From an uncultured Dyadobacter sp. (GTDB lineage: Bacteria > Bacteroidota > Bacteroidia > Cytophagales > Spirosomataceae): a stretch of DNA of 64,000 nt. The notes under the pieces were generated by a model that did no database searches, was not told where the DNA came from, and was given only the letters and a program-made list of their open reading frames with translations. Shown here piece by piece: positions 12,337 to 63,272 of this stretch (position 1 is its first letter; each line of letters opens with the position of its first letter). The stretch lies in contig NZ_CAMLSE010000039.1 in the NCBI RefSeq assembly GCF_946482605.1, positions 1 to 64,000 on the forward strand, written 5' to 3'. The position numbers and the translations under genes are program-made.

Positions 12337-12873
12337 TTATCTTTTTCGGCGGCTATCATCAAGCTTTCGTGAATTTAAATCCAAAGACTCCCACACATGC
12401 CAAAGAGAATCTACCGAGGGGGTAGCTGTCTGTTCGAAGGCTTGATCGATCATTCTCGTTAAACGAGGAGATAATTGCTGAGCCACTTCATACCTCGCCT
12501 CAGTTCGGCTCGCCTGATCAATTTTCTCATACGAACATCTAACTGTCACAAGAGAAGCGGCGGTAGTACAAAGCAGTACTGCCGATGAGGCGAGATAACT
12601 TTTAGCCTTAAAATTGAATGTGACTGGCTTGGGATTTTCCAAAGCGTACGATAATGTCTCGAGGTGCTTTCTAATACCTGCTAGCTGGGAAAGCATCATG
12701 TTGCCTGATGGCATTTTTGCCACACTGGCCTGAATTTCTGCTAGCATTTGACGTGCTAAATCATCGACCGGAGCTTTGGGATCGATCAATACGCTTTCCA
12801 TCACTGAAATCTTTTTTACCAGTATAGCTAGTATTTGCTCGAAGCCATCGAGTTTATCTTCAATATCTTTCAT
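12337..12873 (-). CDS. Mobilization-associated membrane protein
   Basis: 178 residues. An N-terminal helical region with heptad-like spacing (about 1-85) precedes one hydrophobic segment (about 95-112, SSAVLLCTTAASLVTV), then a helical tail ending in a very basic DDSRRKR. Its start overlaps the relaxase stop by 4 bp (ATGA), so it is translationally coupled to the relaxase. Similar small proteins follow relaxase genes in Bacteroidota mobilizable elements, where their role is not settled; anchoring the relaxosome to the membrane is a reasonable guess. Confidence 0.65.
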   Translation of the reverse strand: MKDIEDKLDGFEQILAILVKKISVMESVLIDPKAPVDDLARQMLAEIQASVAKMPSGNMMLSQLAGIRKHLETLSYALENPKPVTFNFKAKSYLASSAVLLCTTAASLVTVRCSYEKIDQASRTEARYEVAQQLSPRLTRMIDQAFEQTATPSVDSLWHVWESLDLNSRKLDDSRRKR

Positions 12874-13808
12874 AAATGTAGTCCTCTCGATTTTTTGCGT
12901 TTGTGATTTCTTTTAAGGTTGGGGTTGACTGTGTCGTGCTGATTTACCGGATCCATCAAGTCTTTCAGCAAGTTTTCCTCGGGATAGTTCGGCAAACCAT
13001 ATCGGTGAGTTAGCATTTTTTCTTGCGCCGGTGGTGGTGTCCCGCGCTCCCACATCCGACGCCTCACCGACATCTGTTGCTGAAAATTTTGCCGCAGCTT
13101 TCTATCAAGTGCCAGAAAGCTCATGCTTCGGTCCACTTTTGAGCCCTTCAACACCGTTCCATCCTTCCCGAAGCTGATACCTTCAATCTGATCGGTACCA
13201 GGCTTGTATTTGTAGATGAGAGCAATTCCGCTCAATGAAAGCGCACCTTCCAATTGTTTCCAATTCACTGCGGATCTGCTTGCCAGCTTGATCTGATCTG
13301 CCAGCTCATAACGCGTTTTATCAATCCCTTTAAGCCTCGCTCGGTTAACCAGCATTTTTCCGTTACCCATGTAGTAGCCATGTTTCAGGGTCATCTCCTT
13401 GCAAACCTTCTGATTGATTCGCTTCTGAAAGCGGTCCGAAATGGATTTACCAGCATTATCAACCCGGTTGTAGATAATATGGATGTGTGGCTGATTGGTA
13501 TCGCGATGTTCAACGACCAAATATTGGGTGTTTTGGATTTTCATTTTGGCCATGTACTCGGCAGCCCTTTCGATCATGACCTTTTGTGAGAGTTTATCCT
13601 TATCGAACGCACTCCAACTCAGCACCAGATGACCGACAGCCTTGCCCAACTCGGGATTCATCTGGCGCTGAGCATTGAAGTCATGAATAGCTGACTTTAC
13701 ATCCTGGGTCCTGACCCCTTCTCCATGAAGAACGATCGCCTGCTCTTTCTGCATGACATACCTGACTGCCCCTCCGAAACTTGATCCTATCATTATCTTA
13801 CCGATCAT
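12870..13808 (-). CDS. Relaxase/mobilization nuclease (MobA/VirD2 type)
   Basis: 312 residues. The N-terminal relaxase domain has the three-His metal motif HRDTNQPHIHIIYNRVD (HxDxxxPHxH) and an early conserved stretch GSSFGGAVRYVMQKEQA. A conserved GHLVLSWSAFDKDKLS block precedes the metal motif. It should nick the transfer origin and stay bound to the 5' end through a Tyr; the best Tyr candidate lies in the N-terminal region (RYVMQ). The C-terminal tail is strongly basic and ends KSRGLHL, close to the tail of the primase. It overlaps MobC upstream by 11 bp. Confidence 0.93.
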   Translation of the reverse strand: MIGKIMIGSSFGGAVRYVMQKEQAIVLHGEGVRTQDVKSAIHDFNAQRQMNPELGKAVGHLVLSWSAFDKDKLSQKVMIERAAEYMAKMKIQNTQYLVVEHRDTNQPHIHIIYNRVDNAGKSISDRFQKRINQKVCKEMTLKHGYYMGNGKMLVNRARLKGIDKTRYELADQIKLASRSAVNWKQLEGALSLSGIALIYKYKPGTDQIEGISFGKDGTVLKGSKVDRSMSFLALDRKLRQNFQQQMSVRRRMWERGTPPPAQEKMLTHRYGLPNYPEENLLKDLMDPVNQHDTVNPNLKRNHKRKKSRGLHL

Positions 13809-14157
13809 CGTTGGTCAATTTTTTGAGTAAATGATCAATGTCTAATAGAAGCTGCGTGGCCTTTTTTGTCTCGTATAACAGCCCCTGCATATTCGTAAAC
13901 CTGAGCAGTTGGTTTAGGTTATTGGCCAGGCCGGCCAACGTTCTGATGAACCCTGCTTCCTCCGCTGAAAGCCGCGCAACAACCCTGGCTTTCCTGGCCG
14001 CTTGCCTCAGCCAGGTGCTTGGCCGAAGGCCTGCGTCCTTTGCTTTGGACTCAATCAAAAACCGCTCGGTTTCCGAAAGTCGGACCATTAGTTGCGCGTT
14101 TCTTTTGACCTTCTTGGGGGGCCGTCCGCCTTTGGATTTGTGTGACTTTTGCTCCAT
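13798..14157 (-). CDS. MobC-like relaxosome accessory protein
   Basis: 119 residues. A basic N-terminus (KSKGGRPPKKVKRNAQLMVRLSETERFLIESKAKDAG, split here as a GRPPKK hook then a ribbon-helix-helix) is followed by RPSTWLRQAA and a C-terminal MobC-like helix pair (LAGLANNLNQLLRF). Such proteins bind near the origin of transfer and help melt it for the relaxase. It is the first gene of the mob operon (mobC, relaxase, membrane protein). The candidate oriT lies 67 bp upstream of its start. Confidence 0.85.
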   Translation of the reverse strand: MEQKSHKSKGGRPPKKVKRNAQLMVRLSETERFLIESKAKDAGLRPSTWLRQAARKARVVARLSAEEAGFIRTLAGLANNLNQLLRFTNMQGLLYETKKATQLLLDIDHLLKKLTNDDR

Positions 14158-14223
14158 GCTTTCTATATCTTTTATCTCTTTTACAGAGTCTGTTAAATGC
14201 CTTTTGCGACCATCGGGAGTAAA

Positions 14224-14285
14224 AGCAAGTTTGAGTTCCGGCGCGGCCGGAACGAGTTTTTGCGAAGCGAAAACACAAACTTGCT
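14224..14285. other. 62-nt three-way-junction inverted repeat, candidate oriT
   Basis: An outer 10-bp stem AGCAAGTTTG (14224-14233) with CAAACTTGCT (14276-14285) encloses two hairpins: GTTCCGGC-GCG-GCCGGAAC (14235-14253, perfect 8 bp) and GTTTTTGC-GAA-GCGAAAAC (14256-14274, 8 bp with one T-G pair). It sits between the primase stop and the mobC start, the usual place for an origin of transfer upstream of mob genes. A structured RNA in the mob operon leader is an alternative. Confidence 0.6.
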
Positions 14286-14305
14286 CCCTGCTCCCTGAAA
14301 GAAAC

Positions 14306-15241
14306 TTAAAAACCCAGCCCTCGGGATTTTCTGGAACGGTGCTGATGTTGGGGCTGCTTTTCCAGCTGCTTGCCTGCTACCAGCATCTGATTCAGATCCT
14401 TGTAATCTTTATAGATACCTGAGGCATCGACGAAACTGAGCCCCGCGTTCTCGAATTTTTCAAGCAGCTTTTTCCCAGCTGCATCGTGATCCGGATATAG
14501 AAAAACGGTGCTGTAACCTTTGAGAATGTCCATACTGCGCTCTGCCAGACTCACCGAATTGAGCACTACAAAGTCGGTCTGGATCTGCTCCTGTTTTCGA
14601 AGCGAGAGAAGCGACAAGAAATCCATAAAGCCTTCCAGCACGCAGACCAAGCTGTGACCATTCTCAATATGGGATATGTCCTTCGGAGATGTCGAGCCCT
14701 TGAAATAGGCATTTCTCAACTCATAGCCGCCCGACCGGTTCTCAAAACCGGCGGCGAAATAATTCTTGTCGTCAACCCGATAGTATACCTCCTGGCAGTA
14801 TGATTTAGCAACGGCCAGATCGATACCACGCGATTCCAGGTACTGGGTAATTGCCCGGTTACTGCCTAACCCCTTTAAAGCGGTAATTTGGACGGCAGGC
14901 TGATCGATTTCTCTGGCTAGGGTAACGCCACTGTCTATATGCAAGCCAGCTAATTTTGGGTCTTGCGGTTGAAATAGAAAATGACCAGAGTCCAATTTCT
15001 CCAACAATGCTTTTGTATTACAACGAAACAGGGCGCGCCCTAAATCGATAATATCTCCTCCCTGACCGTTTCCGTGATCATAATACAGGTTCAGTCTGGA
15101 GTTGACCTTGAAAGAAGGCGTTTTCTCGTCCCTGAACGGGGAGAGGTACCAATGGTCTTGTCCCCGGACATATTGAGGACGGATATGGCAGTGTTCCAGC
15201 AGGTCTACCATAGATATCTGTTTGGCTTGCTCGCAAGTCAT
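14306..15241 (-). CDS. CHC2/Toprim DNA primase of the element
   Basis: 311 residues. The N-terminal zinc-finger-like part has the reduced CHC2 pattern seen in mobile-element primases (H-x-H near residues 17-19, then SPFRDEKTPSFKVN and YYDHGNGQGGDIIDL), and a Toprim domain follows with the Glu of VLEGFMDFLSLL and the DxD-like YPDHDAAGK. It should make primers for replication of the excised element or the transferred strand. The tail is basic (RSRKSRGLGF) and resembles the relaxase tail. The iteron-like cluster lies just upstream, and the primase-helicase gene precedes it in the same direction. Confidence 0.88.
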   Translation of the reverse strand: MTCEQAKQISMVDLLEHCHIRPQYVRGQDHWYLSPFRDEKTPSFKVNSRLNLYYDHGNGQGGDIIDLGRALFRCNTKALLEKLDSGHFLFQPQDPKLAGLHIDSGVTLAREIDQPAVQITALKGLGSNRAITQYLESRGIDLAVAKSYCQEVYYRVDDKNYFAAGFENRSGGYELRNAYFKGSTSPKDISHIENGHSLVCVLEGFMDFLSLLSLRKQEQIQTDFVVLNSVSLAERSMDILKGYSTVFLYPDHDAAGKKLLEKFENAGLSFVDASGIYKDYKDLNQMLVAGKQLEKQPQHQHRSRKSRGLGF

Positions 15242-15323
15242 AATTACCGGGGCTTGAAAGTGAAAAAATTGATGAATTGATGCGAAGAGCTTACAACTGA
15301 TTGGTTTTTAATCATTTAAGCCC

Positions 15324-15456
15324 GCATCAGAAAAGCATCAAAATGCATCAGGGGTGGCATCGCTATCCAGTGATTGATGCGCGTTGATGCGGATTTTGAT
15401 GCGCTGTAATTATTTATTAATCAATTAATTAAATATGATGCGCATCAAAGCATCAA
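15324..15456. repeat. Iteron-like cluster of GCATCA motifs with an AT-rich patch, candidate replication origin
   Basis: Ten GCATC(A/G)/TGATGC sites fall in 133 bp: GCATC at 15324, 15335, 15345, 15357, 15442 and 15450, and TGATGC at 15375, 15385, 15397 and 15436, several 10-12 bp apart. An A/T-only stretch (15407-15435) lies between. It sits between the primase and primase-helicase genes. Iterons next to an AT-rich region are the classic form of an origin; a repressor-binding array is the alternative. Confidence 0.6.
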
Positions 15457-15459
15457 AAA

Positions 15460-16665
15460 TTAGGGCAATTCATTGAGCTCATTTATGCGCCCTCGGGATA
15501 GGGTATAGAACCTACCCTTGCCGGTCTGCTCGAAGACAGTGCCGTCGCTTAGAAATTTGTATTGCGGGTAGGTAAGTGAATTACTTGCCGGGCTCAATTT
15601 CCATACATTTTGCAGGATCCGCTTGATCTGTGAGAGGTCTTTGAAACGGATGTGCTTTTTGTTGAGCCAGTCCTGAACATCGCCAGTGCAAAACCGGATT
15701 TCTTCCAGCTCTTTTTCGTCGGCAATTGTCAGCAGGATATGGGCGATCTCCACTTCCAACTTGTTCCGATTTTGATTGAGCAGCTTTTTTAATGCAGGTG
15801 TCGCAATTTGATCAGCCGTAAACCACATTCTTGTTTTACTGGAATGAACGAAGTTACGGCTCACCAGAAAATACAGAAAGAATGGTATCTGAGCCCGAAG
15901 TTGGGCAAGCAGGTGGTGATTCTCCGATTTTAGTGGTGGCACCTTTCTCACCCAATACCGGATTTCTCCGGGCTCGGCAATAATGAAATGATCTTCGTTG
16001 TTACTGCACAAAATGAATTTTCCGAAGAATTCCACTTCCTGCCGGTCATGGCCTTTGGCCTCGACTTTGTAAAACCGGGCCGTGCTCAGATTCTTGATTC
16101 GCTCTGAATCCTCCTTTCTATCCAGGAACGTTTCATCCACACCGATGACCAGTTTCTGCGCCCATTCGATGTTGAAATTGGAGCGGAAATCCTCATTACT
16201 GTTGATCGTCATGTTTTCGCCAAAGATGGATTTGACAAAATGCAGGAATGTGGTCTTTCCCGTTCCGCGCTCCTCGCTGACCAGGCACAGGATAGGCAGA
16301 ATTTGGGTAGGACGTTCAAGCAGGATTTTGAAGTAGTCATAACCCATCTCGATCTGCTCGCCGAAAATGTGACTCAGAAACTGGAATATTACCGAGGCAT
16401 CACCCTGCCGCGTCTCATGCTGGAATGGCTGATAGCGATTGTAAAACCCGCCAACCTTTTGTTGGTAGTTCAGATGGCTCGGGACGAAACAAAAGCCGTC
16501 GTAACAATCCACCCGGTCCTTCAAGTAGTCACGGCTGTGATCCAGCCGGATGCATTCAGCCGACCATGGGATCAATGAGGAAATCGTGTCGCCGGAAGAT
16601 AGTGGCCGGTTGACTTTCTTAAAGTAACTGGTACCAATGCGTAGGTAAACCGGATTATCTTTCAT
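15460..16665 (-). CDS. Primase-helicase (DUF5906/VapE-like superfamily 3 ATPase)
   Basis: 401 residues. The ATPase core has Walker A SEERGTGKTT (about residue 130), Walker B/SF3-like VIGVDETF and a sensor region FILCSNNEDHFI, as in phage- and element-encoded D5/VapE-type helicases. A winged-helix-like C-terminal part follows. It should unwind DNA at the element's origin together with the primase downstream. The start overlaps the HTH gene upstream by 11 bp; the stop lies 4 bp from the iteron-like cluster, which would place the origin next to its own helicase. Confidence 0.88.
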   Translation of the reverse strand: MKDNPVYLRIGTSYFKKVNRPLSSGDTISSLIPWSAECIRLDHSRDYLKDRVDCYDGFCFVPSHLNYQQKVGGFYNRYQPFQHETRQGDASVIFQFLSHIFGEQIEMGYDYFKILLERPTQILPILCLVSEERGTGKTTFLHFVKSIFGENMTINSNEDFRSNFNIEWAQKLVIGVDETFLDRKEDSERIKNLSTARFYKVEAKGHDRQEVEFFGKFILCSNNEDHFIIAEPGEIRYWVRKVPPLKSENHHLLAQLRAQIPFFLYFLVSRNFVHSSKTRMWFTADQIATPALKKLLNQNRNKLEVEIAHILLTIADEKELEEIRFCTGDVQDWLNKKHIRFKDLSQIKRILQNVWKLSPASNSLTYPQYKFLSDGTVFEQTGKGRFYTLSRGRINELNELP

Positions 16666-16954
16666 GGCTACCTCCGATTTTTTGCTGGCCGTTGGCTATC
16701 CATTCCAGTAGCTCCTTTCGTGAAAAGAGCAACTTACCTTCCATTTTGCAAAACGGAATCTTCTTTCTTTTCACCAGCCCATAAATGGAGGTCTCCTTGT
16801 ATTTGGTAAGGCGCGCCGCCTCCTTGGTGTCCAGCAAAGTGTCACTGGTATCGGAGGAAGCCTCCGGTTTTGACTCTAAAACCCGGCGCAGTGAAGATTC
16901 GATCAGCTCTGATAACTGCTGATCGTTCATCGAAACTAGAACTGTTGTGCTCAT
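16655..16954 (-). CDS. Excisionase-like helix-turn-helix protein
   Basis: 99 residues. The C-terminal half is a MerR-like/HTH_17 winged helix: LLDTKEAARLTKYKETSIYGLVK, then KIPFCKMEGKLLFSRKELLEWIA. The N-terminal 40 residues are acidic and low in structure. This domain is typical of excisionases and of small proteins that precede replication genes in Bacteroidota elements. It may bind the subterminal repeats or the iterons. It overlaps the primase-helicase start. Confidence 0.85.
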   Translation of the reverse strand: MSTTVLVSMNDQQLSELIESSLRRVLESKPEASSDTSDTLLDTKEAARLTKYKETSIYGLVKRKKIPFCKMEGKLLFSRKELLEWIANGQQKIGGSHER

Positions 16955-17020
16955 CCCTTTTGCGTTTTGGTAATGGGCAAAGCAAGGCTAGAAAATCGGG
17001 GAAAAACAATATGAAGTTGA

Positions 17021-18088
17021 CTAAGTCAGGTCTGCGACGCCGTACTCGTTAATTTTCCTTAATGTTTTCAAAACATTTTTAGAATGAGGGCTATCAGTCA
17101 GATTGCCAATGCTCTGTACTATATTCCCGCGCGCTTTATTGATATTACTTCGAAGGCTTTCCAGCTTCGTTTTCGAGTAGCACGAAAATGTATCGAGCAG
17201 CAATTGACAGTACCGGTCAAGGCCAATATTGTTCCGATCTGTATTCAACTTATAGGTAGCATGCATGAGCAGGTTTAAAACCCTCTCGTAGTTTCCCGGA
17301 GGCATTTCAAAGTACTTGTGTTCAGATCTGGGCAGTCTGCCTCCTTTTTCTTCGAACATCATTCCCAAGAGCTGCAACACTTCCCCTTCACTTTTAAATA
17401 CCTGAATAGAGCTCACTGCCTTACATTTCCAAGCGTCGACTAAAATCAACCACATGGATATAATTTCTTCAACCGCATAGTCGAGCGGAATCCGCTCTGG
17501 GCCTTTCGTTTGTACTTCAGCCACTGGCAATTCTTGCTTTTGTGCCAAGACCGGAGATTTATACTTAGGAAGGCCAAGCGCATTTACTCTATCGCCACAC
17601 GCTCGCACAAGGTAAGCCTGGATAAATCCGAGCGCGTATAAACAGGATGGAACAGCAAATCCCTCAAAGTATAAATGATAGGAGCAAAATTCAATGAATT
17701 GCTCCAAATGAGCGATTTTGCTCTCGTTGTCAGGATTGTACAGAATCGAGACTATCTGTTGTGGATATTCCTTCATCGCGTCGAAGTACCCTCTTTCAAA
17801 CTGCGCTCTCAGTTCGTCGGCATAAGACTCCGAGATTGGGCTATGATGATCTACAATGACAGTCGCCCGGTTTTTCTGGTCGAAAATGGCAGCCAGATTC
17901 GGTTCACTGAGGAAGACCGGTGGCGCTGTTTTCTCAGCAATGTTCTCAAAGTGAAAATTACGTGATAGGTAGTCTGCTTTTCCACTGCGAAAAACATGAT
18001 CTACAAATCTTAAATATGGAAACCGTCCCTGATCGTCCAGATTTATACCGAGATCAGGATCGAAGCCTGGCAAATTGAAAAAATACAT
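17021..18088 (-). CDS. 355-residue protein next to the integrase, function unknown
   Basis: A soluble, largely helical protein with no signal peptide. Motifs that stand out are the N-terminal FNLPGFDPDLGIN, an acidic helical middle, and a C-terminal half with LLMHATYKLNTDRNN and DRYCQLLLDTFS. The layout integrase, 350-400-residue unknown protein, HTH protein is common in Bacteroidota elements, and RteC-like regulators occupy this slot in some of them; I do not see enough RteC signature to name it. It ends 4 bp before the integrase start codon region on the same strand order (integrase first), so they are likely co-transcribed. Confidence 0.65.
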   Translation of the reverse strand: MYFFNLPGFDPDLGINLDDQGRFPYLRFVDHVFRSGKADYLSRNFHFENIAEKTAPPVFLSEPNLAAIFDQKNRATVIVDHHSPISESYADELRAQFERGYFDAMKEYPQQIVSILYNPDNESKIAHLEQFIEFCSYHLYFEGFAVPSCLYALGFIQAYLVRACGDRVNALGLPKYKSPVLAQKQELPVAEVQTKGPERIPLDYAVEEIISMWLILVDAWKCKAVSSIQVFKSEGEVLQLLGMMFEEKGGRLPRSEHKYFEMPPGNYERVLNLLMHATYKLNTDRNNIGLDRYCQLLLDTFSCYSKTKLESLRSNINKARGNIVQSIGNLTDSPHSKNVLKTLRKINEYGVADLT

Positions 18089-18092
18089 GCGT

Positions 18093-19328
18093 TCAAAGCG
18101 TTGAGTTAATCAGTTCATCCAAAATTGGGTCCCCGATGTCTTCCAGATAAATATCAGTTGTTTTTAAGCTGTCATGTCCCAATGATCTGCCAATATTCTC
18201 CTTGGATACTCCGTTTCTCCGGAGCGTGGTTGCATATGAATGTCGGGCGACGTACGTAGTCAGGTTCTTCTGGATGCCTAAGATTGCACCTAATTCTTGT
18301 AAGTCCTTGTTAACCCGCGTTCGAATCTTCTGCTTTCTATATCTGATCGACTGTATGCTGTCGTGTCTTTTGTACAATATGGGAAAGATGTAGCCGGCAT
18401 CGCTATTGCCGCGAAGGCTTCGGTAAAAATCAAGGATCCGCATAGCTTCTGGATGGAGCTTAAAACGAAATTCTTCCTTGGTTTTCGATCTGATATATTC
18501 GAGTTCGTCATCAACAATGTTATCCCATTTTAAACTTGCAAGATCCGTAAAATTGATTCCTCGGCAATAAAAACTGAAAAGGAAGTAATTACGTGAATTA
18601 ATGAGTGTGTCATTCATTGGATCGATCACCAGGGCTGAGATTTGATCAATCTGCGATTTTTGAATCGCTCTTTTTTTTGTCCTAGGGTTGTTGTATTTGC
18701 CAAATGCGAGCTCTTTAAAAGGATAGTGACCCTCGGGGCAAAATTTTTCTCGGATTGCTACCTTCCACATCGTTCTAAAGGTTCTTAGATAGACACTTCT
18801 TGTGGTAATAGCGCACCCGCGTTCCATCAAGTATTCTTCATATTTCTTCAGAAAATTTAGATTGATAGATAGAAGATCTCGGTCTTTGTTTTTCACAAAC
18901 CCTTTCAAGCTGCTCAGCGTAAATTTAAAGGTGTCCGCATAGCCGATCCGGTTTTGCTGATTGAGCAGAGAAATATGGTCCTCAAAGAGCTTAAAAAGTG
19001 ATTTGCTCTCTGGTTCTTTCGTTGCGCCAGTCAAACTACGAACCACGCTTTTCATTTCGTCGAAAGTTGGCTTCCGACCTTTTTTTCCTTCAGATATAAT
19101 AAGAAAATCTAACTCAGAAATGATTGTTCTAAGGAGTAAATTGATCTCTTGATGCTTAGGGTGACCGCGGGCAACTTGCTGTTGACTAACTAACCAATTT
19201 TCTTGTTTACAGCTCTTCTTTGTACTGACTAACTGGTTCTTACGATCAATAATGATGCGGAGCATTATCGGATACTCGCACGAATCATTAACTTTGGAAG
19301 CTAGGATAAACTTGGTTGAGAGTGCCAT
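18093..19328 (-). CDS. Tyrosine recombinase (integrase) of the tRNA-Ala element
   Basis: 411 residues with an arm-binding N-terminal domain, a SAM-like core-binding domain (about 110-210) and a catalytic domain. Catalytic features: Arg in FYCRGINFTDL, Lys in the SKTKEEFRF beta-hairpin, ARHSYAT, GHDSLKTTDIY with the nucleophile Tyr in IYLEDI. The box II His position is Tyr (TTYVARHS), which is common in this Bacteroidota branch. It is the gene nearest attR and reads away from it. It joins the element to the 43-bp target in tRNA-Ala. Confidence 0.95.
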   Translation of the reverse strand: MALSTKFILASKVNDSCEYPIMLRIIIDRKNQLVSTKKSCKQENWLVSQQQVARGHPKHQEINLLLRTIISELDFLIISEGKKGRKPTFDEMKSVVRSLTGATKEPESKSLFKLFEDHISLLNQQNRIGYADTFKFTLSSLKGFVKNKDRDLLSINLNFLKKYEEYLMERGCAITTRSVYLRTFRTMWKVAIREKFCPEGHYPFKELAFGKYNNPRTKKRAIQKSQIDQISALVIDPMNDTLINSRNYFLFSFYCRGINFTDLASLKWDNIVDDELEYIRSKTKEEFRFKLHPEAMRILDFYRSLRGNSDAGYIFPILYKRHDSIQSIRYRKQKIRTRVNKDLQELGAILGIQKNLTTYVARHSYATTLRRNGVSKENIGRSLGHDSLKTTDIYLEDIGDPILDELINSTL

Positions 19329-30351: not shown

Positions 30352-31542
30352 TCAGGGGGTAATGATCTGAACGGCGCAGAGGAAGTCTTCTTTTTCGTCG
30401 CGGGTGTAATCCACGTGCTGCTGGGCGCGGTTGTGGATCGGTTCGAATTTTTCTCGAAGGGAAAGCCCAGCACGCCTACCCAGCACGGCTTTAATTTCCG
30501 CTAATACCGACAATGCGATTTCCTCGGAGGTTTCGGCGCCGATATCGAGTCCTACCGGTCCGTATACCTTCTCTTTCTGCTCATCGCAAATCACCATCCC
30601 CTCGCTTTCCAGTTCCGAGTACATTCGTTCCAGCTTCTTCTTCGGGCCTAATGCCCCCACATAATGGCAGGCTTCGACGGTTAGTAGCTGTTTCAGCAAT
30701 GCGAGGTCGTAATTGTAATTGTGTGTCATGAGAACGACAAATGTCCGTTCATCGACGACAATGTGTTTCAAAACGTCGTCTGCACGCGAAACAAGCACTT
30801 TTCCGGCTTTGGGGAAACGCTGGCGCGTAGCGTGCCCGGTGCGCCCATCGACCACGGTAACATCCCAGCCCAGTACACTGGCCATTTCGGTAAGCGGAAT
30901 GGTATCGTTGCCGGCGCCGGCGATGATGAGGGATGGAGGTGTATTGAAATACTCCACAAAACCCGTCAGTGAGCCTAATGCCTTGAAAAATGAATCGTTA
31001 CGTTCATAGGCAGCTTGTGTTTCTGAAAGCAGCTGGTCGTACATCGCCGGGTCCGCGCAATTGCAGGTGACCTGATCGTCGTTTTGTAAATGCAGGAAAC
31101 AGGTGCCGGGTTGGGAACCCGTGCGTGACTGCAACGAAAACATCGTAACGAGTACCGCATTCTGTCGTTTGGCCGCGACCATTTTCAGCAGTTCCACCGG
31201 GTTTTGGGCGTCGTCTGTTTTAATGGGTTCGAAAAGTATATGTACAATGCCGTTGCATCCAAGCTGAACGCCGAGTGTGGTGTCGTTTTCGTCAGTGGTG
31301 TCGTAGGTGACCAGTTTGTTTTTCTGCTGTGAGATAGCCAGCAACGCTTTCCGCAATGCATCGCCTTCCAGGCAGCCGCCGCTGATTGCACCGGTCAGCT
31401 GGCCGTCGTCGGTCACGAGCATACGTGCGCCCGGGCGTCTGTATGAGGACCCCTCCACGTGCACGACGGTCGCGAGCGCCATGCGCTTGCCCAAGATCAA
31501 TGCCTGCTCATACGACCGGATGATGTCCGTGATTTCCTTCAT
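30352..31542 (-). CDS. XdhC/CoxI family molybdenum-hydroxylase maturation protein
   Basis: 396 residues. The N-terminal XdhC/CoxI domain holds VEGSSYRRPGARMLVTDDG and ISGGCLEGD, and a Rossmann-like C-terminal domain holds IAGAGNDTIPL, VVVDGRTGHATRQRFP, HNYNYDLALL and YVGALGPKKKLERM. XdhC binds molybdenum cofactor and delivers the sulfurated form to xanthine dehydrogenase-type enzymes. No hydroxylase gene is in the window. Its start overlaps the upstream NifS-like gene by 35 bp. Confidence 0.9.
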   Translation of the reverse strand: MKEITDIIRSYEQALILGKRMALATVVHVEGSSYRRPGARMLVTDDGQLTGAISGGCLEGDALRKALLAISQQKNKLVTYDTTDENDTTLGVQLGCNGIVHILFEPIKTDDAQNPVELLKMVAAKRQNAVLVTMFSLQSRTGSQPGTCFLHLQNDDQVTCNCADPAMYDQLLSETQAAYERNDSFFKALGSLTGFVEYFNTPPSLIIAGAGNDTIPLTEMASVLGWDVTVVDGRTGHATRQRFPKAGKVLVSRADDVLKHIVVDERTFVVLMTHNYNYDLALLKQLLTVEACHYVGALGPKKKLERMYSELESEGMVICDEQKEKVYGPVGLDIGAETSEEIALSVLAEIKAVLGRRAGLSLREKFEPIHNRAQQHVDYTRDEKEDFLCAVQIITP

Positions 31543-32692
31543 GGCGATGTTGTTTGACTATCTTCGAAATAACCGAGATGGCATGGTTAACATGTTCTTC
31601 GGTAGAAAACCTTCCAAAACTGAAACGAAAGGAGTTGTGGATCCGTGCATCGGAGAATCCCATTGCTTTCAGGACATAGCTCGGTTCGAGTGTCGCCGAA
31701 GTGCAGGCTGAGCTCCTGGAAAAGGCAATATCGCTTCCGGCCTCGAATATCAGCTTTTCGCCGTCGACCTTCCCAAACGATATGTTAGTGCAATGGGGCA
31801 GCCGCCGCGCATCTTCGGAATTGATCTCGATATCCTGCAATACCAGCAGCTCGACTTCAAATGCGTTCCTTAATGCGGTGAGCCGTTTGCTTTCACGGGC
31901 CATTTCCCCGTGGGCAATTTCACACGCCCAGCCCAGTCCGACGATACCAGGTACATTCAGTGTTCCGCTGCGCATGTTGCGTTCGTGACCACCGCCGTCC
32001 ATTTGTGCAATGAGGGATACCGCCGGGTTCTTTTTTCTGACATACAATGCACCTGCTCCCTTCGGACCGTAGAGCTTGTGGGCGCTGAGCGCGAGGATAT
32101 CGATTCCGTCGGATTGGACGTTTACCGGTATTTTGCCTACGGCCTGGGTCGCATCCGACATGAAAAGGATGTGGTGCTTTTTGGCAATGGCCGCTATTTC
32201 GCGGATTGGCTGTATTACCCCGGTTTCGTTATTGGCATACATCACCGCAATCAGGACCGTATTTTCGGTAATTGCATTTTCCAGGTCTTCCAACCCGATC
32301 AGGCCATTGGCATTCACCGGCAGATAAGTAACGCTCCCGCCCGACTGCTCGATATGACGGCAGGTGTCCAGCACCGCTTTATGTTCAGTGCAAACGGTTA
32401 TGAAATGCTTTTGTTCCTGTTCCGAATGCTGGAAAACACCTTTCAGAGCAAGATTAATAGCTTCGGTTGCCCCGGATGTAAAAACGATCTCCTGGGGATG
32501 TGCGCCGATCAGGTTGGCAACCTGCTCCCGGGCAATATCCACGGATTCTTCCGCTTCCCAGCCATAAGAATGTGTTCGGCTCGCTGCATTTCCGAATTTC
32601 TCCGAGAAATAAGGCAGCATTTCCTGTAAAACCCTCGGATCGACCGGGGTTGTAGCATTGTTATCCAGGTAAACCGGCAGTTTCAGGAGCAT
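31508..32692 (-). CDS. Cysteine desulfurase (NifS/IscS-like)
   Basis: 394 residues from ATG 32692; an in-frame TTG lies nine codons earlier. PLP-dependent aminotransferase fold V: YLDNNATTPVDPRV, TSGATEAINLALKG, ALSAHKLYGPKGAGALY (the PLP Lys) and the catalytic Cys loop SSACTSAT (normally G-S-A-C). It takes sulfur from cysteine as a persulfide. Being joined to XdhC (35-bp overlap) and MocA-like genes, it may sulfurate molybdenum cofactor and not only serve Fe-S assembly. No IscU gene follows. Confidence 0.93.
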   Translation of the reverse strand: MLLKLPVYLDNNATTPVDPRVLQEMLPYFSEKFGNAASRTHSYGWEAEESVDIAREQVANLIGAHPQEIVFTSGATEAINLALKGVFQHSEQEQKHFITVCTEHKAVLDTCRHIEQSGGSVTYLPVNANGLIGLEDLENAITENTVLIAVMYANNETGVIQPIREIAAIAKKHHILFMSDATQAVGKIPVNVQSDGIDILALSAHKLYGPKGAGALYVRKKNPAVSLIAQMDGGGHERNMRSGTLNVPGIVGLGWACEIAHGEMARESKRLTALRNAFEVELLVLQDIEINSEDARRLPHCTNISFGKVDGEKLIFEAGSDIAFSRSSACTSATLEPSYVLKAMGFSDARIHNSFRFSFGRFSTEEHVNHAISVISKIVKQHRHEGNHGHHPVV

Positions 32693-32744
32693 TGACAGAT
32701 CTTTCTTTTCCAAAAGCAAAATGCTTGCTGTTAGTTCAAATTAA

Positions 32745-32810: not shown

Positions 32811-34676
32811 TTATGAAGGTTGGTAGGCCATATCGCCGGTGGACAGGACGTCTGGCCCTAGGAATACCCGGGCATAAATGCGTATCGCAGCCAGCCCATT
32901 GAGAATGAGGCTCGACGCGATCACGAATGCGAGAAGCATTTGATTTTCTTGAATGGACCTCAAAATGAAGCTTTCGGCAATAAACGCCGGTGTGACGGGA
33001 AAGCCCGACATTCCGAGGCAGCATAGCAAAAATATAAGCGCCAGGCCCGGGTGCTTGCAAGAATGGCCGTGGAAGCGATCAAGTCCGATGTTGTGCTCCA
33101 ATGACTTTAACTTGTAGAGGAGGACGGAACCGATCACGCCGGCGACCATTACACCGCTCAGATAGAGAAAGGCCTGATCGTAGCTGAAACGCCCATTGAA
33201 TAGGATTGCAAGCGCAATCCAACAATGGTTCATCATGATCAGCAGCCAGCTCATCTGCGTTCTCAGGCGTTCTGTGAATGATTTCAGAACCATTATCAAA
33301 CCAATCAGCGAGAACAGGAACGGAAGGTAGGCGCTTATATTTTGCGGGATATTTGCTTTTTGGAGGAGCCCCAGTACACCGCTCAGATACAGTGGGGTAA
33401 AGATTAGCACCGCCCGGGTGAAATCCAGGAAGCTGAGGCGGTCGCCGAGTATTTGCAACGGATTCCACAGGTATCGGTGCGTCAGGGAATCGAGATTCCA
33501 GGACCTGATGCTCAACATGAAGAGCGTGTACTGGATTTTTTTTGGAATATGAGATGCAACGGACCCGGCATAAGACTCACGTTGATGCAATTCCTGGCGG
33601 ATCGGGTACCCGGCCATTTTTGGAGCCGTGAGCAATTGGTAAGCCCGCAGGAATGCGTTGCCCGCGAAATGGAACAATGCCAGATTCTTGAAACCTATGG
33701 CCACTTCGATGAACATCAGTCCGGTGTGCGCGATGGAGGCATAGGCGACCCGTTGCCTGACCGATGATTGAGCCCGGGCGATACCGGTGGCGATGGCGGC
33801 GGTGGAAAGCCCCGCAAGGGAGATCAGCAAACGCATCGGCAGCAGGTGTTCCCAAAACAAAGCGGTTCGCAACAGCAAAAAGACGCCCAGGTGCACCAGT
33901 AAAGAACCGTAAAGAATCGCGCTGGCAGAGGTACCACTTTCCATGGCACGCGGTAACCATGTAGAAAAGGGAAGCTGTGCAGACTTTACACAGGCAGTGA
34001 AAAGCAGCATGACAGGGATGAGCAATGCGATGGCGCCCTGGGTTTTAGGCTGTTCGTAAACCACTCCGTAGCTGCCAAGTTTAAAGAATGCGACACCGCG
34101 CCACAGGTGGCGACCTGACCACATGGCAAGGGTCAGGCCGACATCACCCAAACGATAAACAGAAAAAAAACGGACGGCGTTTTTTACCGGAAGGGCCTGG
34201 TCGCGGTAAAAGGCGATCAGAAGGAAAGAGGCAATGGCCAGCATTTCCCATCCGATGACTATTGTTTCGAAGTTGCCGGAGCAAATTGTGACGCTGTAAC
34301 CCAGGTAGAAAAGCAGAATGATTTTGGAAAGGCGGCTTTGATCTTTTTCTCCCTGCATTTCCCGGCGGTTGTAAATAGCCGCAATGCAGGTGAGGATTGC
34401 CCCAACGGCCATATAGACCGCCGTTATTTTATCAAAATAGAAATCAATGCTAAACCCGAAGTCTTGTGAGCGTAGGAGCGTAACCACCTTCTGATCGGTG
34501 CCTGGGTGCCCATTCCATAGCCAGCGGACCAGGAAGGCGATTATGGCAGTAGTGTGGATGCCTAACGTAAGAAATAGAATGCGCACGATGGTATACTCCC
34601 GCCTGTCAGGGACAACCACACTGATCAGAAAGCCGATCAGGGGAGGCAGTACCAAAAGTGATGCGAACGATATCAT
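32811..34676 (-). CDS. dabB: DabB-like proton-conducting membrane subunit (NuoL/MrpA family)
   Basis: 621 residues, about 14-16 hydrophobic helices. NuoL-like conserved sites are seen: Glu in GWEMLAIASFLLIAF, Lys in ACVKSAQLPFSTWLPRAMES followed by SASAILYGSLLVHLGVFLLL, and YASIAHTGLMF. Antiporter-like subunits of this type couple proton flow to a partner. The partner encoded just upstream is a DabA (UPF0753/DUF2309) relative, so the pair corresponds to the DAB bicarbonate-accumulation system and not to respiratory complex I. The C-terminal part beyond about residue 480 also keeps transmembrane character. A terminator follows. Confidence 0.82.
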   Translation of the reverse strand: MISFASLLVLPPLIGFLISVVVPDRREYTIVRILFLTLGIHTTAIIAFLVRWLWNGHPGTDQKVVTLLRSQDFGFSIDFYFDKITAVYMAVGAILTCIAAIYNRREMQGEKDQSRLSKIILLFYLGYSVTICSGNFETIVIGWEMLAIASFLLIAFYRDQALPVKNAVRFFSVYRLGDVGLTLAMWSGRHLWRGVAFFKLGSYGVVYEQPKTQGAIALLIPVMLLFTACVKSAQLPFSTWLPRAMESGTSASAILYGSLLVHLGVFLLLRTALFWEHLLPMRLLISLAGLSTAAIATGIARAQSSVRQRVAYASIAHTGLMFIEVAIGFKNLALFHFAGNAFLRAYQLLTAPKMAGYPIRQELHQRESYAGSVASHIPKKIQYTLFMLSIRSWNLDSLTHRYLWNPLQILGDRLSFLDFTRAVLIFTPLYLSGVLGLLQKANIPQNISAYLPFLFSLIGLIMVLKSFTERLRTQMSWLLIMMNHCWIALAILFNGRFSYDQAFLYLSGVMVAGVIGSVLLYKLKSLEHNIGLDRFHGHSCKHPGLALIFLLCCLGMSGFPVTPAFIAESFILRSIQENQMLLAFVIASSLILNGLAAIRIYARVFLGPDVLSTGDMAYQPS

Positions 34677-34761: not shown

Positions 34762-36390
34762 TTAGTGAGTGGAATGAAATGGCAGGTTTTCGTAATGATA
34801 TTCGTATGTCGTTGCCGGATCGCCGACATTTCCCAAACCGGGCCGATAAGATTTGTAAGGGATCATTTCACCGTCTCTGAAAACAAACAAGTCTTGTGTT
34901 TCGGGATTGAGAACCGCGAGGTGTACCCATTCATTGATGAACCATTCGAAAGCGCCCGGGAGCCTTTGAATCACATCCATGACGGTCTCCGGAAAGTGCT
35001 CCACCAGAACCAGCAACCTGACCGGGTCGTGGCGTCCGACTTCCTCGCTGGACAAGCCCCACCGGAGATCACTTTCCATGCTATTGCTGATGCCAAAGAA
35101 ACCCATGACCTGATGCAAAAACCGCGTCCCGGTGCCTAATTTCTGGTTATCATTCCGTGAGAAGAAGTAACCCAGGTTAATGCCCCCCTGAGCGGGTATC
35201 AGCTCGCGCAGGACATGGATCAGATCGTCGCCTCCCAGGTCGATTTCATAATTATAAGCGTGCAGCAATACATGGTGGGCAGCGTCGAGGTTGCTGGTGA
35301 GCCTGTGCCTGCCGACGATACACAGCGCATGGGTCGCCAGGTTAAGGCCGGGGTATGGTTCAAACAGCAATGATCGGTTGTTTACCGCTGAATGCCCGCC
35401 GGAATCGTTCACCGTGGTCTGGCCGAATGAAGTGATGGACTCCGGTTTATGTGCTTTGATTTCTGCGAAAACCTGGTCGTAGTAGCTCCATTCCAGTGCC
35501 TCCTGCCATATCGACTGTACTTCGCTCAGTTCACTCGCCTGTACCGCCGAGAAGAGTTCTTCCGGCTGGTCCCGGATCTGGACGGCCAGGGGAGCCCAGG
35601 AGCCGGGAAAATGAGCGTCCAGTGCATCGATTTCCATTAGCAATTCGAAAATAACCAACTCGTGCAAAGAGATTTTGCGGGGGTAGGGCAGCGTTTCGGA
35701 CTGATCTTCGATTGCCGAAACCATCCCCGACCAGCCGTGGTGGGCAAACTGCTGATCGAAAAGATATTGCCCGAAAAGCAGCTCGTCGCCGACCACGACT
35801 TCGAGCAGGTCACCGATCGATGGTGTCGTATGGAGCAGCAGATTCCTCGCACGCGGCGTCCTGAAAACACTGGTAAAACTGTTTGCTTCTATCTCGCGAA
35901 GAGCAGCAAGAAAGCCGTTTTCGTGAACAGGAAACTTCCATACAGATACACCCTGGTCGAGATAGCTGCAAAGAATTCTAAACAAAGTCGGATGGACAAT
36001 GGCATTGAGATCGAGCCTGCATTGCGTTTTCCATTGCGTCCTGAGCCTTCCGATTCTGGGCGTTTTGCCACCGTGGAATTTTTTCATCAGAACCTTGTCC
36101 CTCCATTCTGAGGTGCGCAAAGGCCCCTTCCTTTCCAGTATCACTTTTTCCAGGATTTCCGGGTTGATCTTCCTGGCATTATAAAAAGACCGGTATTCGT
36201 CGGGAGAAAGAAGGGTACAATAGCCAAATATTTCGGACGCCTGATGCAGTGCATTGTGAAATTTGTATCGCTGAAATGCACGCAACGGGTTGCGGTGGAG
36301 AACACGATCAGGAAGGTCCGCAGCCGGAAGGAAATGCTTCAGACTCTGCAATGCGGCATGTTCGTCGAATGATTGTTTCCGCGCATTCAT
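34762..36390 (-). CDS. dabA: DabA-like protein lacking its zinc-site core
   Basis: 542 residues from ATG 36390 (a TTG 32 codons earlier is in frame). The N-terminal half matches DabA/UPF0753 closely in style: RNPLRAFQRYKFHNAL, QASEIFGY, PRIGRLRTQWK, RILCSYLDQG, FDQQFAHHGWSGMVS, ISLHELVIFELL, EWSYYDQVFAEIK. The C-terminal part also matches: CIVGRHRLTSNLD, IPAQGGINLGYFFSR, LGTGTRFLHQVMGFFGI, SDLRWGLSSEEVGRHDPVRLLV, FINEWVHLAVLNPETQ. Between residues about 300 and 355 (bases roughly 35325-35490) the family's central region of some 250-300 residues is missing. That region carries the C-x-D(R/V)RE and H...CGAC zinc and catalytic ligands. Normal members have 800 or more residues. No frameshift is needed; the frame is intact. 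Confidence 0.8.
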   Translation of the reverse strand: MNARKQSFDEHAALQSLKHFLPAADLPDRVLHRNPLRAFQRYKFHNALHQASEIFGYCTLLSPDEYRSFYNARKINPEILEKVILERKGPLRTSEWRDKVLMKKFHGGKTPRIGRLRTQWKTQCRLDLNAIVHPTLFRILCSYLDQGVSVWKFPVHENGFLAALREIEANSFTSVFRTPRARNLLLHTTPSIGDLLEVVVGDELLFGQYLFDQQFAHHGWSGMVSAIEDQSETLPYPRKISLHELVIFELLMEIDALDAHFPGSWAPLAVQIRDQPEELFSAVQASELSEVQSIWQEALEWSYYDQVFAEIKAHKPESITSFGQTTVNDSGGHSAVNNRSLLFEPYPGLNLATHALCIVGRHRLTSNLDAAHHVLLHAYNYEIDLGGDDLIHVLRELIPAQGGINLGYFFSRNDNQKLGTGTRFLHQVMGFFGISNSMESDLRWGLSSEEVGRHDPVRLLVLVEHFPETVMDVIQRLPGAFEWFINEWVHLAVLNPETQDLFVFRDGEMIPYKSYRPGLGNVGDPATTYEYHYENLPFHSTH

Positions 36391-36694: not shown

Positions 36695-37330
36695 ATGTCA
36701 CTTCGATTAGGAGATATCGCACCGGATTTTGAAGCCAATACCACGCAGGGACCCATTAAATTCCACGAGTGGCTGGGAGATAGCTGGGGATTGCTGTTCT
36801 CTCACCCCGCTGACTTTACTCCCGTTTGTACAACAGAATTAGGTAAAACGGCCCTTTTGAAAGGTGAATTTGAGAAGCGCAATGTGAAAGTGCTCGCAGT
36901 GAGCGTGGACGACCTGGATTCGCATAACCGTTGGATCCCGGACATTAACGAAGTCAACAATACGGAAGTTAACTTCCCGATCATTGCAGACGAGGGCCGC
37001 AAGGTAGCACAGCTGTATGATATGATCCACCCTAATGCGAGTGAAAAGGCAACCGTTCGTTCGGTGTTTATTATCGGGCCCGACAAGAAAGTAAAGTTGA
37101 CGATCACTTACCCTGCTTCGACGGGCCGCAATTTCAATGAGATCCTACGTGTTGTGGATTCGTTGCAGCTGACAGCCAATTATTCCGTAGCTACCCCCGC
37201 CGACTGGAAGGACGGCGAGGATGTGATCGTGGTACCTGCTGTGAGCACCGAGGACGCGCAGAAGAAATTTACCAAAGGACTGAATATCGTAAAGCCATAC
37301 CTGCGCTACACGCCACAGCCTAACAAGTGA
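36695..37330 (+). CDS. 1-Cys peroxiredoxin (Prx6 family)
   Basis: 211 residues. The peroxidatic Cys is in SHPADFTPVCTTELG (P-x3-T-x2-C form), the supporting Arg in NASEKATVRSVFIIGPDKK, and a long C-terminal extension (about 160-211) typical of Prx6 forms the dimer face. No resolving Cys is found, so it is a 1-Cys enzyme needing an outside reductant. It reduces H2O2 and organic hydroperoxides in the cytosol. It has its own terminator; upstream 200 bp are A/T-rich and probably hold the promoter. Confidence 0.95.
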   Translation: MSLRLGDIAPDFEANTTQGPIKFHEWLGDSWGLLFSHPADFTPVCTTELGKTALLKGEFEKRNVKVLAVSVDDLDSHNRWIPDINEVNNTEVNFPIIADEGRKVAQLYDMIHPNASEKATVRSVFIIGPDKKVKLTITYPASTGRNFNEILRVVDSLQLTANYSVATPADWKDGEDVIVVPAVSTEDAQKKFTKGLNIVKPYLRYTPQPNK

Positions 37331-61713: not shown

Positions 61714-61798
61714 AGAGAGATGGCAGAGTGGTCGATTGCGACGGTCTTGAAAACCGTTGACTGTAACAGGTCCGGGGGTTCGAATCCCTCTCTCTCTG
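61714..61798 (+). tRNA. tRNA-Ser (TGA anticodon)
   Basis: 85 nt, class II with a long variable arm: acceptor AGAGAGA/TCTCTCT, D-arm TGGCAGAGTGGTCGATTGC, anticodon arm ACGGTCTTGAAAACCGT (anticodon TGA), T-arm GGGGGTTCGAATCCCTC. Promoter and terminator are both present. Confidence 0.96.
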
Positions 61799-61821
61799 CA
61801 GGACATGATGTCAAAACATTC

Positions 61822-61857
61822 AAAAACCCCGTTTAAGCGCTTTAAACGGGGTTTTTT
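61822..61857 (+). terminator. Intrinsic terminator after tRNA-Ser
   Basis: A 15-bp stem AAAAACCCCGTTTAA with its complement, 5-nt loop, six T. Confidence 0.9.
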
Positions 61858-62048
61858 GCATTTTTGGGACGTACCAAAAGATGCAAAAAATCCCAATGAA
61901 AATGTAGGTTATCGTGGAAGTGACAAAACTGAACAAAAACTTCCATATAACACCCACTAACTGGCTGATTAAAAGATGTTTACGAACTAAACATCTTTAC
62001 TTTCAATTGTAACAATTCGATTTTTGTTCATCTTAAACATTTTTTACT

Positions 62049-63272
62049 ATGTTGGAAACAAGCTTCGGGTTGATTTTCTTTTTGAAAAAGCCCAAACCAG
62101 AATTAGCGGGTGGCATGCGCTATGTCTATTGCCGAGTCACCGTCAACGGCATCCCCAAGGACATCTCTACAAAGAGAGTTTGGCATCCATCCAAGTGGAG
62201 CGTCGGCGCGGGTCGGGCGACAGGGAACAAGGAGGATACCAAAACATTGAATGCCTACTTGGATACGCTAACTTCCAAAATTTATGAAGCAAAGCGATCC
62301 TTGATTGAGGCGAATAAAGAGGTCACCTCAGAAGCCATCAAAAATATCCTTTTAGGAAGAACTGAGGGTGGGAAAACTATCTTGCCTATTTTCCGAGAAC
62401 ACAACGATCAGATTGCTGCATTAATCGGGGCCGATTTTGCGCCAGGCACATTGGAGCGGTACGAGACTTGCTTCAAACACACCCGTGACTTCATCAAATG
62501 GAAGTACCAGGCAGAAGATTTCGAAATCGGGAAGCTTGACTACGAATTCATATCACAATATGAATTCTGGCTTAAAGCAGTTAAGAAGGTCAGCCATAAC
62601 ACTACGATGAAGTATTTGGCGAACTTTAAGAAAATTGTGCTTCTGTGTGTTAAAAGAGGATGGCTCCTACGTGACCCGTTCTATGCTTTCAAATTTTCGA
62701 AGCGAGAGGTGGACCGACAAGCATTAACTGAAGCCGAGCTGAAGAAAGTATGGGATAAAGATATGGGAGACGGCCGCCTAGGCCTTGTCAAGGATATCTT
62801 TCTTTTCTGCTGCTACACGGGACTTGCCTATGCGGATATATATAAGTTGAAGCGGACAGAAATTGCCGAAGGGATTGATGGCGGAAAGTGGGTTACGACT
62901 AAGCGCCAGAAGACTGACACTCCGTCCCGGATACCTATTTTACCGATGGCTATGGAGATTATGGAGAAGTATGAAGATCACCCACAATGCGAGAATGAAA
63001 ATCGGGTACTGCCTGTTCTTTCCAATCAGAAGATGAATGCTTACTTGAAGGAGATCGCGGACTTGTGTGGGATTAAGAAAAATATCACGTTTCATCTAGC
63101 TCGCCATACCTTTGCCACTACTGTAACTTTGACTAATGGGGTACCGATTGAAAGTGTTTCAAAGATGCTGGGCCACAGGAATATCAAGACCACCCAGCAG
63201 TATGCAAAGATTGTAGATAAGAAAATTAGTGATGATATGGCAAGGTTGAAGGATATTCTATCTAGGCAATGA
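62049..63272 (+). CDS. Second tyrosine recombinase (Bacteroidota integrase)
   Basis: 407 residues. Arm-binding region at the N-terminus, SAM-like domain (about 100-210) and a catalytic domain with FHLARHTFATT, GHRNIKTTQQYAKIVDKK (Tyr nucleophile) and the Lys of TTKRQKTDTPSRIP. The first catalytic Arg site reads CYTGLAYADIYKL, so that Arg is replaced by Ala, as known for some Bacteroidota integrases such as IntDOT, where a nearby residue compensates. Just after the stop is a truncated tRNA-Leu-like 3' end, and just before it a tRNA-Ser. It probably belongs to an integrative element whose other genes are missing from this window. Confidence 0.9.
   Translation: MLETSFGLIFFLKKPKPELAGGMRYVYCRVTVNGIPKDISTKRVWHPSKWSVGAGRATGNKEDTKTLNAYLDTLTSKIYEAKRSLIEANKEVTSEAIKNILLGRTEGGKTILPIFREHNDQIAALIGADFAPGTLERYETCFKHTRDFIKWKYQAEDFEIGKLDYEFISQYEFWLKAVKKVSHNTTMKYLANFKKIVLLCVKRGWLLRDPFYAFKFSKREVDRQALTEAELKKVWDKDMGDGRLGLVKDIFLFCCYTGLAYADIYKLKRTEIAEGIDGGKWVTTKRQKTDTPSRIPILPMAMEIMEKYEDHPQCENENRVLPVLSNQKMNAYLKEIADLCGIKKNITFHLARHTFATTVTLTNGVPIESVSKMLGHRNIKTTQQYAKIVDKKISDDMARLKDILSRQ

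Follow-up and report, generated by a model that had tools for sequence, protein, structure and literature searches.

Core-less DabA proteins at a conserved Dyadobacter locus: a probable reduced, non-catalytic derivative of the DabAB membrane complex

The closest described system is DAB2 of Halothiobacillus neapolitanus, a vectorial carbonic anhydrase (CA) driven by the proton motive force (PMF) and composed of DabA2 and DabB2, for which a structure was recently solved (PDB 9rd0; PMC13144422). According to that report, DabA2 comprises an N-terminal domain (NTD) of 280 residues, described as serving mainly for folding, and the beta-CA-like domain II (residues 281-336 and 656-827), into which domain I (341-655) is inserted. 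The zinc site lies in domain I, its ligands being Cys351, His524 and Cys539; so do the dyad Asp353-Arg355 and the helices of the finger, on which Glu444 sits (PMC13144422). The same report describes hydrophobic contacts of the finger mainly with DabB helices TM11-14, a probable periplasmic half-channel formed by the finger and TM12-13, and a DabB proton path that the finger is thought to complete; the finger is needed, as E444A and E444Q abolish DAB2 activity, and the K235A mutant still complements with reduced growth (PMC13144422). The homologous pair MpsAB of Staphylococcus aureus is a proposed Na+/bicarbonate symporter (PMC13144422); we set it beside the core-less pair by description, and the passages on MpsAB mention no core-less form. 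Among the results listed in our literature searches, whose coverage did not extend to subscription papers and preprints, no core-less DabA was reported.

The window analyzed here (the whole stretch of 64,000 nucleotides from an uncultured Dyadobacter sp., contig NZ_CAMLSE010000039.1) contains a dabAB pair between two conserved border genes. Its features are listed below by position in the window and strand, with transmembrane (TM) helices numbered by our own count.

36695..37330 (+): AhpC/TSA peroxiredoxin, conserved locus border
34762..36390 (-): core-less DabA, 542 aa, PF10070 (open frame, Pfam, alignment)
35551..36390 (-): N-terminal helical domain of DabA, residues 1-280 (limits from PMC13144422 via profile alignment; pLDDT; dN/dS)
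35446..35550 (-): first strip of beta-CA-like domain II, residues 281-315 (limits from PMC13144422; alignment; pLDDT)
35341..35445 (-): linker at the excision scar, residues 316-350, in place of domain I (DabA2 341-655) (alignment, pLDDT)
34840..35340 (-): rest of beta-CA-like domain II, residues 351-517
32811..34676 (-): DabB, full length, 621 aa, PF00361, NuoL-like (open frame, Pfam, alignment)
33468..34454 (-): part of DabB that is also kept in the sister clade, residues 75-403, TM3-TM11 and cytosolic tail
32814..33467 (-): part of DabB kept in the window and lost in the sister clade, residues 404-621 (interpreted as the finger cradle, TM12-15)
31508..32719 (-): class V aminotransferase, cysteine-desulfurase-like, conserved locus border

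Elsewhere in the window, inspection of the translations by eye found relaxase-like, primase-like and phage-integrase-like ORFs at 12870-19328, probably an integrated mobile element. At 61714-63272 a tRNA-Ser is followed by an ORF (62049-63272) that by eye is tyrosine-recombinase-like, a possible integration site.

The window dabA frame, 34762-36390(-), is open over 542 codons with 0 internal stops, and its start at 36390 agrees with that of its relatives (MNARKQSFDE in the window, MTARNNSFDE or similar in most). The product belongs to the DabA family PF10070, which it matches in two stretches above the curated Pfam cut-off (E 1.2e-75; 255.9 bits versus 25). Both dabA and dabB resemble their neighbors in codon-position composition, and neither has an internal stop. 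Alignment with full-length DabA bears out the preliminary description of this DNA in that the core is gone, both flanks are kept and the frame is open. The joint between the flanks is short, as had been claimed, but it measures 44 residues rather than about 55, from K312 of EWSYYDQVFAEIK to C357 of CIVGRHRLTS, as against ~332 residues in the full-length protein of locus L075. The net deficit amounts to ~288 residues between the N- and C-terminal parts relative to full-length relatives with frames of 815-907 aa. Placed on DabA2 (9rd0_A) by a family-profile alignment read by eye, the window protein breaks off at about residue 335 and is matched again from about 645. In this alignment the missing piece is almost exactly one structural domain, the beta-CA-like domain I with its zinc ligands and the membrane finger bearing Glu444, a point that goes beyond the preliminary description.

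Neither a zinc site nor domain I with its finger is found in the window DabA. The region of Cys351, His524, Cys539 and Asp353-Arg355 is absent, a linker Phe being merely placed in the His524 column, and all five of these catalytic-site residues occur in 11 of 12 full-length DabA rows, the twelfth (L076) having R355P. A tblastn search detected no domain-I-like sequence elsewhere in the 64-kb window (best E 0.39), and the domain I query gave no match to the window protein, cluster P0167. CsoSCA, the carboxysomal beta-CA (2fgy, 9g4t), keeps a catalytic partner half, whereas the core-less DabA has no catalytic half left. Lacking a zinc site, the protein would have no beta-CA chemistry, and judged from its sequence the pair cannot be a canonical PMF-driven CA. 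In the AlphaFold model of the window DabA the NTD and most of the rest are well predicted: pLDDT is 75-95 in 26 of the 28 ten-residue blocks of the NTD (58 and 61 in the other two), and falls to 27, 25 and 30 in the blocks of linker residues 321-350. A remnant of the right side begins near the end of the scar: its sequence, NNRSLLFEPYPGL, corresponds to RSLSLFEPRPEL in full-length DabA. A Foldseek search of the PDB with the model had no match at E <=0.001, and 9rd0 was not among the best 50 matches listed, though sequence search finds it. A CXXC of a Leptospirillum DUF2309 protein has been read as a redox motif (PMC9080137); a CXXC in the aligned DabA rows starts with the zinc ligand Cys539 and may be the same.

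The nearest genus is Dyadobacter (best RecN identity 81% among 291 sampled genomes of the order), and 48 of its genomes were compared. A DabA match was found in 16 of them. Ten carry an intact core-less DabA in open frames of 505-562 aa, orthologous and at the same chromosomal site, which supplies the count of core-less members across genomes that the preliminary description had proposed. In a further genome (G307, locus L074) the core-less DabA is broken by a TAA stop and no DabB was detected, which illustrates final loss within the group. Full-length DabA occupies the same site in four genomes (G314 with locus L075, G310, G313 and G247); the only DabA of G327 is full-length and lies elsewhere in the genome, and an additional full-length copy is found away from the site in G314, G305 and G320. 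The domain I query matches 7 of the 48 genomes, each time within a frame of 815-868 aa, and at this search sensitivity finds nothing in eight of the ten genomes with intact core-less DabA.

At the protein level, 2224 DabA clusters match at E 1e-30, and the best 120 of them include 42 short ones (405-568 aa), among them the window's P0167; domain I is present in 0 of the 42 short and in all 78 long clusters. In this count P0160 (405 aa) is retained, although it is short and may be a fragment. At least four of the 41 core-less clusters other than P0167 come from the Dyadobacter genomes above. All 41 fall in a quick tree into one clade with the window form as its sister, in keeping with the suggestion of the preliminary description that the protein marks a new subfamily. 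We refer to this sister group, in which DabB is short as well, as the mini clade. The window form is represented among the 120 listed clusters by P0167 only, found on two contigs. Core-less or mini clusters are named Dyadobacter soli, D. beijingensis, Dyadobacter sp. SG02 and others, and several core-less entries bear names like 'inorganic carbon transporter subunit DabA'. No core-less DabA occurred outside Dyadobacter among the matches listed for 222 genomes of the family, genus members included (short frames in G356 and G362 may be contig ends, and weak matches of ~E 1e-11 to 1e-18 were set aside), nor in the phylum among the 10 matching of 395 genomes (E at most 1e-60). A first scan of 34 relatives found both conserved parts ~300 residues apart in one frame in 33 of them (L024 and L032 are cut by contig ends, and L025 is an N-terminal match only); taken alone, that scan looks full-length and would wrongly suggest a one-off deletion.

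The dabA gene, with dabB where present, lies between the peroxiredoxin and the class V aminotransferase in the window, at the 11 core-less and at the four full-length Dyadobacter loci. In 25 further genomes the two flanks are neighbors separated by 161-1165 bp, and dabAB is not clearly present; in one of these genomes (L113) a weak DabA-like match (E 0.03) may be due to chance. The remaining eight of the 48 genomes, with the flanks on different contigs or one of them not found, stand outside this comparison. A functional link to the XdhC- and MobA-like neighbors was considered and dropped, since the flanks stay adjacent in the 25 genomes without dabAB. At 14 (of 34) DabAB loci from other taxa there was no peroxiredoxin, aminotransferase, XdhC or MobA-like match at E 1e-8; five of the 14 match only a generic ABC ATPase query, results of the TonB-like query not being included.

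Sequence comparison shows common descent at one site. The window and the 11 core-less proteins group against 30 others in the tree of the DabA NTD (97/90), and the window and ten mini sequences group against 16 others in the tree of the DabB core (99/98), built without the fragments of L076 and L078 and without L074, which has no DabB. In a tree of the flanking genes, for which no dabAB sequence was used, the full-length locus L075 falls outside (98/88), followed by the window (100/99) and then by the mini clade (87/94; 96/82 together with a neighboring dabAB-free genome). A denser quick tree joins the window and the minis with an SH-aLRT of 91, below the tool's mark of 95. The loci L076 and L078 are nearer to the core-less clade than L075 in the DabA tree (94/83) and further out in the flank tree, where L075 is nearest; long branches may be at work in this conflict. 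At their right edges the deletions of the window and of the minis are offset by some residues, so that two separate losses keep a small probability, as does long-branch attraction. At L076:7999-10872 and L078:7457-10769 the DabB beside the full-length DabA of the site is wrecked (142 and 282 aa, with an internal gap in the longer frame), which may represent a different route of loss. Full-length DabAB pairs occur at other loci in four genomes (L079-L082), and a gene of ~111 aa, shared by L079, L081 and L082, adjoins dabA.

A NuoL-like DabB (PF00361) adjoins DabA in the window and at the ten intact mini loci, at one of which it is split. The window protein has the full 621 aa, and the mini proteins have ~300 aa, in frames of 307-333 aa that match window residues 75-403. 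The split one (L072 of G329) consists of a 284-aa and a 75-aa piece; in G329 the frames of the class V aminotransferase, of a TonB-like ORF and of a beta-CA gene are split too, suggesting an error-rich assembly, so the break in dabB is likely a sequencing error. On the evidence of alignment and model, the helices of mini DabB are TM3-TM11 by our own count (hydropathy counts missed helices and were not used), and TM1-2 and TM12-15 are missing. The AlphaFold bundle of mini DabB superposes on NuoL/ND5 of complex I (TM-score 0.72, rmsd 2.7 A, 271 alignment columns), and the NuoL fold is kept; it differs from NuoL/ND5 in spanning only about TM3-TM11 and in having Gln for the conserved TM7 Lys. In the mini clade, then, loss of the finger goes together with loss of most of the DabB cradle, a reciprocal shrinkage that the preliminary description had not foreseen, and the window is the exception with its whole DabB. 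Because its DabA is core-less and its DabB full-length, the window locus looks transitional, a further point beyond that description. The core-less pair thus shares with DAB2 the DabA domain II, the helical NTD and the adjacent NuoL-like DabB, and differs from it in having no domain I, zinc site or finger and, in the sister clade, no TM1-2, TM12-15 or TM7 Lys.

Positions in DabB are named after what we take to be their counterparts in DabB2, matched through NuoL-type motifs and published residue numbers. The window DabB keeps the TM5 Glu, Arg182, Asp185, Lys235, His266 and His339, and has lost both GPTP prolines and carries Arg at 310. The preliminary description had named part of this, with the partner keeping its proton-path Glu and Lys. 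Mini DabB was surveyed in 44 clusters (P0001-P0044, counting P0039 and P0043, which are short and may be fragments). P0099 and P0100, which keep Lys235 and look like contig-cut full DabB, and P0107, which looks like a mini fragment, were left out. All 44 retain the TM5 Glu, Arg182 and Asp185, while His339 is retained in 43/44 and Lys310 in 41/44; K235Q in TM7 and Y260L are found in 44/44, and position 266, His in full-length forms, is Gln in 41/44.

Pairwise dN/dS values (Nei-Gojobori script, off-frame DabB rows of F077 left out) point to purifying selection on both genes of the mini clade, being mostly 0.13-0.23. For DabA they span 0.10-0.28 (43 of 45 pairs, two being saturated) and for DabB 0.08-0.23 (36 pairs, without L072). 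Full-length DabA pairs gave 0.14 (L081-L082) and 0.23 (two Azotobacter), and the values for flanking genes, where defined, were 0.008-0.050. When neutral change was simulated uniformly at 0.1 substitutions per site, the frame stayed free of stops in 1 of 300 runs. The dS between the window and most relatives is saturated; purifying selection, seen in the mini clade, probably acts on the window member as well. By region, eight mini pairs average 0.13 in the NTD and 0.20 in the C-terminal part (dS is undefined for 281-315), and two full-length pairs show the reverse pattern, with the C-terminal part tightest (0.08 and 0.15). Mean identity among minis is 0.72 in the NTD and 0.55 in the C-terminal part of domain II; among full-length proteins the corresponding values are 0.64 and 0.76 for L075-L077, and 0.54 and 0.60 as means over full-length rows. 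By these measures the NTD is the best conserved part of the core-less clade. On end branches, DabA compared with the flanks reaches 0.37 versus 0.075 in the window and 0.15 versus 0.17 in L075, such that core-less DabA evolves several times faster relative to its flanks than full-length DabA does. Sequence comparison thus indicates a constraint that is real but has moved to the NTD and is partly relaxed.

The explanation that we consider probable is a reduced, non-catalytic membrane complex derived from DabAB and kept for another job. At the fixed Dyadobacter locus, DabAB would have lost domain I with its zinc site and finger before the window lineage and its sister clade parted, in the simplest case as a single event. 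DabB of the sister clade would then have lost TM1-2 along with TM12-15, with which the finger is in contact, and polar residues within the membrane would have been rewired. What remains would be a NuoL-like TM3-TM11 anchor (the whole DabB in the window) that still binds DabA and carries its NTD and half a pseudo-beta-CA. Such a pair would hydrate no CO2 and most likely neither pump nor leak protons. It would be retained for a job resting mainly on the NTD; a scaffold at the membrane with a binding or regulatory role is the most plausible candidate. That selection has kept the shrunken pair suggests some other job of this kind. Pro_CA has 2-4 matches in each of the 48 Dyadobacter genomes, at least one over the cut-off in every case, and DabAB therefore need not be their source of CA activity. 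Counting against a retained job, the pair evolves faster than its flanks, which also fits relaxed constraint, and the broken copy in G307 together with the absence of dabAB from the site in many genomes makes the pair dispensable. For the more specific proposal, namely a minimal DabAB-derived complex that gained a new function through stepwise reciprocal loss, with the window as an intermediate and an NTD that has a selectable activity of its own, we see about even chances.

Decay and conduction are the rivals of some weight, both unlikely. A relic in slow decay, the rest of the pair dying after the loss of domain I, would account for the faster evolution relative to the flanks, the broken copy in G307, the weak possible remnant in L113 (E 0.03, perhaps chance) and the full-length DabA beside wrecked DabB in L076 and L078. 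Ten of 11 mini DabA frames are nevertheless intact, dN/dS lies well under 1 for both genes, at a level no worse than that of the two full-length DabA pairs, and K235Q is identical in 44/44 clusters. The preliminary description had likewise judged the open frame not to be simple decay, and the ten syntenic intact orthologs and the purifying selection in the mini clade agree; for the window member alone decay is a stronger rival. About as improbable is conduction of protons, of another ion or of bicarbonate by a pair that hydrates no CO2, as the preliminary description had suggested. Such conduction is consistent with the polar residues and C-terminal helices kept by the window DabB, with the TM5 Glu, Arg182, Asp185, Lys310 and His339 of most or all mini clusters, and with the merely lowered growth of K235A in DAB2 (PMC13144422), for which reason the TM7 change alone is no proof of lost conduction. 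However, Glu444 of the finger, described there as essential in DAB2 (PMC13144422), is gone in all aligned core-less rows. The mini clade in addition lacks TM12-15 and has K235Q and Y260L, and in the window the GPTP prolines are gone and position 310 is Arg. As the finger is missing in both, and TM12-15 in the minis, the described proton path cannot be complete, and the missing finger together with Gln for the TM7 Lys in 44/44 mini clusters makes proton conduction improbable. The suggestion is thus not supported in the form in which it was worded; for the window alone, whose DabB is full-length, conduction is a stronger rival.

The preliminary description had also allowed that a full DabA split elsewhere might supply the core, or that reads or a sister strain might reveal an intact one. 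A core provided in trans by another protein is very improbable: two of the ten mini genomes (G305 and G320) do have a full-length DabA elsewhere, but at this search sensitivity the domain I query finds nothing in the other eight or in the window, and where it matches at all (7/48) it does so within frames of 815-868 aa. An assembly collapse or one-strain deletion, to which the single cluster of the window form might point, is the least credible account of all, in view of the intact core-less orthologs at the same locus in ten of 48 genomes, the 41 core-less clusters besides the window's, the occurrence of the same protein on two contigs (P0167) and the many substitutions at positions well conserved in full-length DabA.

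With the reduced, non-catalytic complex as the preferred explanation, evolution seems to have run a domain-deletion experiment on DabAB, in which the catalytic domain and the finger were removed together and, in the sister clade, the cradle thereafter, with the rest kept under selection. This supports a modular view of the DabAB machine. A PF10070 match or the name DabA does not imply CO2 uptake. As a family, core-less DabA is a variant on the known DabA, and a demonstrated new function would make more of it. The core-less pairs offer natural minimal constructs for assembly and proton-coupling tests. They also suggest that the NTD, described for DAB2 as serving mainly for folding (PMC13144422), can have a function of its own.
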